The notes beneath the pieces are model-generated. The model was not told the origin of the DNA and searched no databases. It worked only from the letters and a program-made list of their open reading frames with translations. From the NCBI GenBank assembly GCA_020848745.1, contig JADLHM010000144.1, forward strand, positions 1 through 37,989: a stretch of 37,989 nucleotides of DNA, given 5' to 3'. The translations under genes were made by a program, and so were the position numbers. Positions 25,982-27,903 of this stretch are shown here, piece after piece (the first letter of the stretch is position 1; the number at the start of each line of letters is the position of its first letter). The stretch comes from Deltaproteobacteria bacterium (GTDB lineage Bacteria > Desulfobacterota > Binatia > UTPRO1).

Positions 25982-26773
25982 TCACTCGCCGCGAAAGCTC
26001 GGCTTGCGCTTCTCGAGGAAGGCGCGGACGCCCTCGGCATAGTCGGCGCTCGCGAAGCAATCGGCGATCAGCCGCCGCACCGCTTCGAGGTCGCGCCCGC
26101 CCGGGTCGCGCTGGGTCTCGGCGATCGCGCGCTTCGCGGCGCGGATCGTGAGCGGCGCGTTCGCGGCGATGCCTTCGGCATAGCTCCGGGTGAAGGACGC
26201 CAAGTCCGCCTTGGCCACCACCTGGTTCACGAGGCCGATGCGGAGCGCCTCGTCGGCGGTGTAGGTGCGGGCCGTGAAGAAGAGCTCGCTCGCGGCGGAG
26301 GGGCCGACGAGGCTCGCCAGGCGCTCGACGCCGGCATACGCGTAGCCGAGGCCGAGCCGGGCCGGTGGAAGCGCCATGCGGATGTCGTCGGCGGCGACGC
26401 GGAGGTCGGCGCAGGCCGCGATCGCGAGGCCTCCGCCGATGCAGACGCCCTGGAGCATGGCCACGACCGGCTTCTCGAGCGCGAGCAGCGCCGCGAAGGC
26501 CCGGCCGTTCGTCTGCTCGTACGCGGCGGCGGAGGCGGGGTCCTTGCGATGGGTCGCGAACTCCGAGATGTCCGCGCCGGCCGCGAAGGCGTCGTCGCCG
26601 GCACCGCGCAGCACGACGACGCGGACCTCCGGGTCGGCCGCGAGCTCCGCGACGAGCCCCGGGATCGCTTCCCACATCTCGAAGCGCACTGCGTTCAGGC
26701 GCGCCGGGTTGCGGAGCACCATCCACGCCACACCCGCCGGGCCACGCTCGATGTCGATGCCGAACTCGCTCAC
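25982..26773 (-). CDS. Crotonase-superfamily protein (enoyl-CoA hydratase/isomerase fold)
   Basis: The 263-residue product has the crotonase fold with both oxyanion-hole segments, AAGADISEF (about 65-72) and the glycine loop VCIGGGLAIAACADLRVA (about 110-127). The two glutamates of classical enoyl-CoA hydratase (rat 144 and 164) are replaced: A117 stands at the first position and A138 (in PPARLGLG) at the second. It is therefore unlikely to be a standard hydratase; isomerase, hydrolase, decarboxylase or another CoA chemistry is possible. The GTG at 26773 gives the usual family N terminus; an ATG at 26815 would add 14 residues. The gene is convergent with acpS. Confidence 0.85.
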   Translation of the reverse strand: MSEFGIDIERGPAGVAWMVLRNPARLNAVRFEMWEAIPGLVAELAADPEVRVVVLRGAGDDAFAAGADISEFATHRKDPASAAAYEQTNGRAFAALLALEKPVVAMLQGVCIGGGLAIAACADLRVAADDIRMALPPARLGLGYAYAGVERLASLVGPSAASELFFTARTYTADEALRIGLVNQVVAKADLASFTRSYAEGIAANAPLTIRAAKRAIAETQRDPGGRDLEAVRRLIADCFASADYAEGVRAFLEKRKPSFRGE

Positions 26774-26877
26774 GCCGCTTTCCCTTTCCGCGGCACCTCG
26801 TACACGAGCATTCACGGTTCCGCCAGGCGCCCGAGCAATGTCTCGGTTTCATCCGCGCGCACGAACGAGCGGTGGCA

Positions 26878-27014
26878 GCAAGCAGGCGGGTCGGGGAGGG
26901 TTTCTACGGTCGCCGGGTCGCTGGTCCCGGCGCGTAGAGCCCGCCGGAGCTTCTCCGTCTTGCGCACACGCGAGCTGACGGCTCCCCGAAGCCATCCCCG
27001 ACCCGCCTGCTTGC
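26878..27014. repeat. Palindromic intergenic element, copy A (137 bp)
   Basis: The element is bounded by a perfect 20-bp inverted repeat: GCAAGCAGGCGGGTCGGGGA at 26878-26897 and its complement at 26995-27014. Inside, reading on +, are TTCTACGGTCGCC (26911-26923), a small internal hairpin GCCGGG/CCCGGC, CGCGTA, GCCCGCCGG, TCTTGCGCAC and GCGAGCTGACGGCTCCCCGA. Copy B at 27111-27251 has the same blocks in the same order on the other strand. It has no coding potential and no obvious target-site duplication. It resembles ERIC or MITE-like imperfect palindromes in size and symmetry, but the sequence is not one I recognise. It lies 104 bp upstream of the crotonase start. Confidence 0.85.
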
Positions 27015-27110
27015 CGCATCCATTCGAACAGAGCCAACTCGATCGCGGCCGCTATGCGCACGCCGAGTCGGCGAGCCGCCACGGCCTCGACGGTCGTGTG
27101 TGATTGGAAT

Positions 27111-27251
27111 CGCCGGCGGGTGGGTCCGGGAGTGCTTCGGGGAGCCGTCAGCTCGCGCCGTGCGCAAGACAGGGAGGCACCGGCGGGCAGTACGCGCTGG
27201 GTGCCAGGAACTGGGCGACCGTAGAACCACTCCCTGACCCACCCGCCGGCG
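27111..27251. repeat. Palindromic intergenic element, copy B (141 bp, inverted relative to copy A)
   Basis: A 24-bp terminal inverted repeat, 23 of 24 matching, runs at 27111-27134 and 27228-27251 (outer part CGCCGGCGGGTGGGTC). On the minus strand it repeats the internal blocks of copy A in order: TTCTACGGTCGCC, GCGCGTA, GCCCGCCGG, GTCTTGCGCAC, GCGAGCTGACGGCTCCCC. Between the copies the core is nearly identical while the arms differ in a pairing-preserving way. It lies 136 bp upstream of the PH-domain gene, with the same end facing the gene as copy A has toward the crotonase. The 614-bp gap 26774-27387 holds no gene I can support. Confidence 0.85.
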
Positions 27252-27387
27252 CCATCGAACGAAGACCGATCGCGGCAGATCGAAACTCTGGTGCACGATC
27301 AACCTGAGACGCTACCGGCGTGCGGCGCGACTGGCGGTGCGCCAGCTCTTGCGAGTACAATTCGGCCGGTCGAGGGGAGGGGGCGCG

Positions 27388-27903
27388 ATGGAGCATCGCT
27401 TCCGGACGAGCCGGTTCACGCGCGGCAACGTGGTCTTTCCGACAGAGATGGTCGTGACCGATCGCCACGTCAGCCGCATCAAGCCGTCCCTCGTCGGCTC
27501 CATCGAGGAGAGCATCAGCTTGCGCCAGGTGTCGTCGGTGACGGTGAGCCACGGGGCCCTCTTCGCGGACGTGACCGTCCACTCCTCGGGCGGCACCGAC
27601 CCGCTCCGCAGCCACGGACTCACCAACGCCGAGGCGCGACGGTTGAAGGAGCTGATCGAGGAGCTCCAGAGCAACATCCTGAGCGCCGGGGTGGCGGACC
27701 TGAGCGGCCTCCGTCCCTGTCCGCGTTGCGCCGAGACCATCAAGGCGGCGGCGCAGGTGTGCAAGCACTGCGGCGCCGACATCCCGATCGTCCTCACCGA
27801 GGAAGCTCCGCCCGAGCCCGTCGCGGAGCCTGCCGACACCTTCGGTGCCGAGCGCGCCGCCGGCCCGGCGGCCGGCGACGACGAAGACTGGACCTGGAGC
27901 TGA
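27388..27903 (+). CDS. PH-like domain protein with C-terminal zinc ribbon
   Basis: The 171-residue product begins with a region that looks like a bacterial PH (bPH2-type) fold (about 1-95: FRTSRFTRGNVVFPTEMVVTDRHV, ESISLRQVSSVTVSHGALFADVTVHSSGG). A C4 zinc ribbon follows, C111-P-R-C114 ... C125-K-H-C128 (TIKAAAQVCKHCGADI), then an acidic Pro/Glu-rich tail. Such pairs of domains occur in uncharacterised proteins. There is no membrane helix. GGAGGGGGC lies upstream of the ATG, and TACAAT (27356-27361) is a good -10 candidate without a clear -35. The assignment of the PH fold is by pattern only. The next gene starts 2 nt after the stop. Confidence 0.75.
   Translation: MEHRFRTSRFTRGNVVFPTEMVVTDRHVSRIKPSLVGSIEESISLRQVSSVTVSHGALFADVTVHSSGGTDPLRSHGLTNAEARRLKELIEELQSNILSAGVADLSGLRPCPRCAETIKAAAQVCKHCGADIPIVLTEEAPPEPVAEPADTFGAERAAGPAAGDDEDWTWS

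Follow-up and report, generated by a model that had tools for sequence, protein, structure and literature searches.

REP, BIME and REPIN sequences are conserved palindromes that occur as inverted pairs; RAYT enzymes move their units, which measure about 20–40 nt, and leave the target unduplicated; Y1 transposases produce no duplication. IS1 elements typically carry GGnnnTG tips and 8–9-bp duplications. Among larger repeats, ERIC, YPAL/RU-2 and the Rickettsia palindromic elements are small palindromic intergenic sequences of 100–170 bp that form long stem-loops, and the CIR repeats of Caulobacter and Brucella are non-autonomous intergenic repeats consisting of two long inverted-repeat arms and a linker (PMC2229807). 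IS-derived MITEs such as QMITE2 of Coxiella burnetii combine 20–29-bp terminal repeats and 7–9-bp duplications with stable folds, and are presumed to be mobilised in trans by an IS transposase; QMITE2 is about 190 bp at full length, and MITEs are typically A+T-rich (PMC10969869).

Here we describe an intergenic element of 483 bp in a window of 37,989 nucleotides (the whole stretch of DNA analysed), using its own genome (G000), two sister genomes (G001 and G002) and further relatives from the class. When compared by architecture alone, the element resembles the CIR repeats, but each of its arms is a compound hairpin of ~150 bp, one arm repeats the other in inverted orientation, and its ends are GGTAGTG with 8-bp duplications. 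The original prediction had likened the sequence to ERIC or MITE elements; the likeness to MITEs stands, whereas ERIC, a ~127-bp single palindrome of enterobacteria, is set apart by architecture and ends. YPAL/RU-2 and the Rickettsia elements are likewise single hairpins, in contrast to the two inverted hairpins enclosed here within one terminal-repeat element. The units are longer (~150 nt) than those of REP, BIME and REPIN sequences, and the 8-bp duplications do not support membership of the REPIN/BIME group, with its Y1-type insertion without duplication. The element also differs from QMITE2 in its length and paired-hairpin interior, and from typical MITEs in the base composition of its hairpins (>70% G+C). 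It is closest in architecture to the CIR repeats and closest in origin to IS-derived MITEs such as QMITE2. We read it as a genus-restricted MITE, a gene-less transposon that would have been moved in trans by an IS1-type transposase, and place the probability of this reading at roughly 0.86.

Two inverted hairpins within a 483-bp element

Two copies of one sequence on opposite strands had been predicted at 26878–27251, and the analysis bore this out: 42-nt blocks are 79–88% complementary between the copies, and copy A, read on the plus strand, is colinear with copy B, read on the minus strand, over ~150 bp that can be aligned end to end (BLAST E = 5e-27 in a search of the whole own genome). Each copy is itself a long hairpin, with arms at 26866–26904/26988–27026 in copy A (82% complementarity) and at 27111–27138/27224–27251 in copy B (93%). 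Both fold with z-scores of −5.0 to −7.9, and no shuffled sequence folds as well.

The predicted interval covers the hairpin interior but is too short, as the element ends 44 and 65 bp further out. These ends were found by extracting hairpin pairs with their flanks and aligning them in one orientation. Similarity among the pairs extends past the hairpins to a common end, GGTAGTGTCTCAGTTTGATC, which is inverted at the opposite side, the ends common to the elements reading GGTAGTGTCTCAG... The element has a left and a right, since the outer stem is of the 'P' type in one hairpin of each pair and of the 'Q' type in its partner. The features of the locus, with the evidence for each, are:

25982–26815, minus strand: left neighbour, enoyl-CoA hydratase (crotonase) gene, outside the element (PF00378, E 1.6e-53)
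26826–26833: left target-site duplication remnant, GGCGCCCG, 6/8 identical to the right copy (flank comparison; permutation test over eight elements)
26834–27316: whole element (MITE), 483 bp (alignment of 14 elements; G002, which lacks the stretch; conserved ends)
26834–26853, plus strand: left terminal inverted repeat, decayed, AGCAATGTCTCGGTTTCATC against the consensus GGTAGTGTCTCAGTTTGATC (element alignments)
26872–27020, plus strand: copy A of the hairpin, with an outer stem of the 'P' type and the TTCTACGG end facing out (covariance model match of 149.8 bits; folding)
27021–27105: inter-hairpin spacer, poorly conserved among elements (alignment of elements)
27106–27256, minus strand: copy B of the hairpin, inverted, with an outer stem of the 'Q' type and the TTCTACGG end facing out (covariance model match of 144.1 bits; folding)
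27297–27316, minus strand: terminal inverted repeat on the right, GATCAACCTGAGACGCTACC, which differs from GTAGTGTCTCAGGTTGATC at one position (end-sequence search)
27317–27324: right target-site duplication remnant, GGCGTGCG (flank comparison)
27388–27903, plus strand: right neighbour, zinc-ribbon protein gene, outside the element (UPF0547/Zn_ribbon_3, below curated cut-offs)

When the own genome was searched for the end sequence (≤3 mismatches), seven of eight matches belonged to hairpin-pair elements. Target duplications were compared in the eight elements with readable ends: three are exact and three have one mismatch in 8–9 bp. The duplication score summed over all eight was 48; when left flanks were shuffled against right flanks, 7,287 permutations averaged 12.5 and never exceeded 29. 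Better preserved elements in class relatives show 8-bp duplications (CCTTTATC, GTCTGGTC, AGACAACA and TATCATTC) beside GGTAGTG...CACTACC, and we therefore take 8 bp as the true length; the ninth duplicated base seen in some own-genome elements coincides with a mutated tip. No transposase was found in the reading frames through the 483 bp, which are intergenic. Several marks of a MITE are accordingly present: the element is short and without a transposase gene, with terminal inverted repeats, target duplication at the level of the family, dispersed copies and empty sites.

Copy number, pairing and distribution

A BLASTN search with copy A yielded 30 good matches in the own genome, followed by a weaker tail, so the sequence is not limited to two local copies; most of these matches are paired, plus strand first and minus strand second. 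Altogether, the own genome holds about 45 hairpin copies on many contigs. Seventeen close pairs account for 34 of the 45 copies counted, all in the same outward orientation and 205–326 bp apart from start to start, while 0.2 close pairs would be expected at random.

The proposed covariance model search, run with a model of the whole hairpin on 29 genomes, gave about 50 matches in G000 and 16 in G001, including some in which one hairpin was matched on both strands; G002 and 26 other relatives had no match. A model of the core alone matched 45 times in G000 and 12 times in G001, with no match in the 56 other genomes, G002 included (58 searched; stricter filters apply with more than 40 genomes). 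Among the relatives searched, the hairpin element is genus-restricted, being found in G000 and G001. An exact DNA pattern recovered two contigs of sister genome SJ588 and four further matches from the GTDB collection. One of the latter (L109) lies within an apparent efflux-pump coding sequence, and the remaining ones, from a planctomycete and two Streptomyces, are presumed to be due to chance. Plasmid and phage collections contained no match to the element, and a scan of Rfam 15 at a relaxed threshold gave chance matches only (best 28 bits, against a gathering threshold of 168). The earlier statement that the sequence belongs to no known repeat family thus holds for the collections tested (Rfam, plasmids and phages).

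Empty sites, shared insertions and neighbouring genes

In G002, the crotonase and zinc-ribbon genes are adjacent and window bases 26830–27321 are missing, with 13 bp separating a match whose last base is 26829 from the next one, which starts at 27322. The divergent spacer exists there without the element, which indicates insertion into a spacer that was already in place. The window insertion is present in G001, where the spacer and most of copy B have been lost. Other insertion sites are also common to G000 and G001, and the C98 and C45 elements of the own genome are absent from G001. Taken together, the shared and the missing insertions show that the family was mobile before G000 and G001 split, and very likely also afterwards; precise deletion of C98 and C45 from G001 is the less likely alternative.

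Two shared elements, at L036 (G001:C59) and L136 (G001:C51), have collapsed in G001 from a pair to a single hairpin through loss of the spacer region. What remains there of the window insertion is one hybrid hairpin, its left arm of the P type and its right arm of the Q type; the C125 element has collapsed in a similar way. Another G001 hairpin carries a further insertion of ~67 nt (L158:354-420, G001:C16), itself a near-perfect hairpin with 26-nt arms (96% complementary), which its own-genome orthologue, C141, lacks.

Divergent, tandem and convergent gene pairs are all present around the copies (genes were called by codon-position G+C and are approximate). On account of this mixed orientation, divergent-gene regulation was rejected as a candidate role. 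The weight originally given to the divergent arrangement is likewise not supported, in view of the mixed contexts, the insertion into a pre-existing divergent spacer and the neutral drift at shared sites described below. The alignments show, beside the right-hand gene, a TACAAT box that lies beyond the element and that G000, G001 and G002 all retain, so that the promoter of this gene probably does not depend on the element; a promoter scan at the same gene gave no consensus match.

Element ends across the class and a candidate transposase

The end sequence is present in 39 of 98 class relatives, with copy-rich genomes far above a reversed-pattern control, in which matches were rare. In G018, identical 18-nt ends enclose an element of 2.7 kb that encodes an AAA ATPase and a transposase of 284 aa. 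The latter scores above the cut-off of Pfam DDE_Tnp_IS1 (PF03400; 27.2 bits against 24.1) but under that of NCBIfam IS1 (NF033558; 1e-14 and 54.9 bits against 100). A 710-bp derivative in this genome retains both ends and an 8-bp duplication (CCTTTATC), but of the transposase no more than the 3' part; in class relatives there are also short elements that share these ends and have exact 8-bp duplications.

The ATPase of the IS1-type element (L083:188-2964, G018:C44) is a 420-aa protein encoded on the opposite strand, an unusual feature for this type. Ends of the form GGTAGTGTCTCA or GGTAGTGGGTCA were seen on many short elements in G015, G021, G028, G061, G079, G085 (genus g13) and G063 (genus g20); such ends are therefore widespread across the class. 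A literature search on the ISMhu11-type IS1 subgroup was without result.

With its GGTAGTG tips and 8-bp duplications, the element fits the rule for IS1 (GGnnnTG; 8–9 bp) and resembles the single-ORF IS1 family, the more so as the same ends surround an IS1-type transposase gene in G018. It differs from that family in having no transposase gene, and no IS1-type transposase was found in G000 (Pfam family and protein query), G001 or G002. Judged from the shared ends, the copies were most likely mobilised in trans by an IS1-type enzyme.

Covariation between copies and drift at fixed sites

An alignment of 31 copies supports a stem of 33 pairs, with 94.6% of cells paired. As many as 23 of the 33 pairs have changed on both sides, and none of 500 shuffles matched the cells paired, the both-side changes or the covariation score; shifting the pairing partner by one to three columns abolished the covariation signal. 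Covariation support for the inner helix (CAGCGC/GCG-AG-CTG) is weak because this helix is mostly invariant.

The comparison at insertion sites common to G000 and G001 covered four orthologous hairpins that are intact in both, and hence small counts. Changes affected 25/210 stem and 36/335 apical positions (12% vs 11%; Fisher p = 0.68), with 13 pairs broken, seven kept via a one-sided change and two via a both-sided change. The idea that stems are frozen between orthologues, derived from one inner stretch (C32/C61), was contradicted over the four hairpins. At fixed sites, therefore, we see drift and no host-level selection on the fold, and the covariation between copies must have arisen in lineages that were still moving. 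Its source in those lineages may be selection for mobility or palindrome-restoring repair. Mismatches on the TTCTACGG strand (12 G.U vs 25 A.C) point to no convincing RNA strand.

The weaker matches are distant copies that share the apical core and have different, sometimes perfect stems of 26–27 bp. Relatives with near-perfect other stems that lack recognisable terminal repeats are L149, L150, L151, L152, L153 and L155 in the own genome and L156 and L157 in G001. The end-less pair L151 (C25) is absent from G002, where 63 bp remain; a further end-less pair lies at C125:2.2k. Such distant copies (L149, L150, L151, L152 and L155) may point to a history of the hairpin apart from the GGTAGTG ends. 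A related extra stretch, CCCTCTCCGAGGGCACGGCGAG, itself a small palindrome, was found in the apical loop of two hairpin copies (L008:1725-1891 and L148:304-464).

Discussion

Three roles had originally been considered for the repeat. The mobile palindrome is the one that the data favour, given ~45 copies, terminal repeats, 8-bp duplications and empty sites, while a structured RNA and a regulatory site are not supported, given the mixed orientation of flanking genes and stems that drift as fast as loops at shared sites. The element is an ordinary kind of mobile DNA with an unusual two-hairpin interior. The transposase responsible, of the IS1 type and no longer to be found in G000, would have acted in trans, binding the ends and thereby moving the copies. 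Several observations count against this reading: no such transposase was found in G000, G001 or G002, the duplication of the window element is only 6/8 identical, several distant hairpin copies have no recognisable terminal repeats, and the G018 transposase scores below the NCBIfam IS1 cut-off. As pairing is kept between copies but not after insertion, the hairpin pair appears to be retained for spreading: lineages that keep the pair would continue to spread, irrespective of the needs of neighbouring genes. Transposition might require the pair in cis, or might be accompanied by repair that restores the palindromes.

If the hairpin were instead a conserved structured or regulatory RNA used by the host (a leader, attenuator or sRNA), with the element as a mere carrier, one would expect the long stable folds, the strong covariation between copies (23/33 pairs, 0/500 shuffles) and the apical core conserved in copies with unrelated stems. 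We nonetheless regard this as improbable, since no Rfam family comes near its gathering score and the hairpin is genus-restricted, being absent from G002 and 55 further class relatives. The balance of change at shared sites (12% in stems, 11% in apical parts; 13 pairs broken, two compensated) also speaks against a host RNA, as do the G.U and A.C counts of 12 to 25, which single out no clear RNA strand, and the retention of the right-hand gene's TACAAT box outside the element in all three genomes.

The hairpin pair could also be a mobile unit of its own, REPIN-like and served by a RAYT-type single-strand transposase, with only some pairs lying inside IS1-type ends. Such a unit would account for the distant pairs L151 and L155 without recognisable ends, for the lack of the L151 pair in G002 and for the single orientation of 17/17 pairs, but elements with intact margins end at GGTAGTG with 8-bp duplications, which fits a DDE transposase, and we consider this explanation slightly less probable still than a host RNA. 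The two copies in the window, taken by themselves, could also stem from one recent inverted duplication at this place, from chance or from faulty assembly; with about 45 copies spread over many contigs, the window insertion present again in a second, separate genome (G001) and the empty sites, the likelihood of this is practically nil.

It is conceivable, though rather doubtful, that the compound hairpin is a functional part of transposition or moves as a unit by itself. Its structure, a conserved apical core on freely exchangeable, near-perfect stems that always occurs in outward inverted pairs, would then be selected on mobile lineages, and recognition would be of the folded DNA, either single-stranded or as a cruciform. 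We know of no structural cis requirement of this folded-hairpin kind for DDE-type MITEs; if movement does depend on the hairpin pair in cis, DDE transposons would have a type of signal that is new for them.

The family provides a copy-rich example of a bacterial MITE that carries an elaborate folded interior and whose insertions can be placed relative to two sister genomes. It separates compensatory evolution between mobile copies from host-level selection at a fixed site, two processes that are often confused. For the discovery of RNA families in dispersed repeats this calls for caution, as covariation alone would have pointed to a host RNA.
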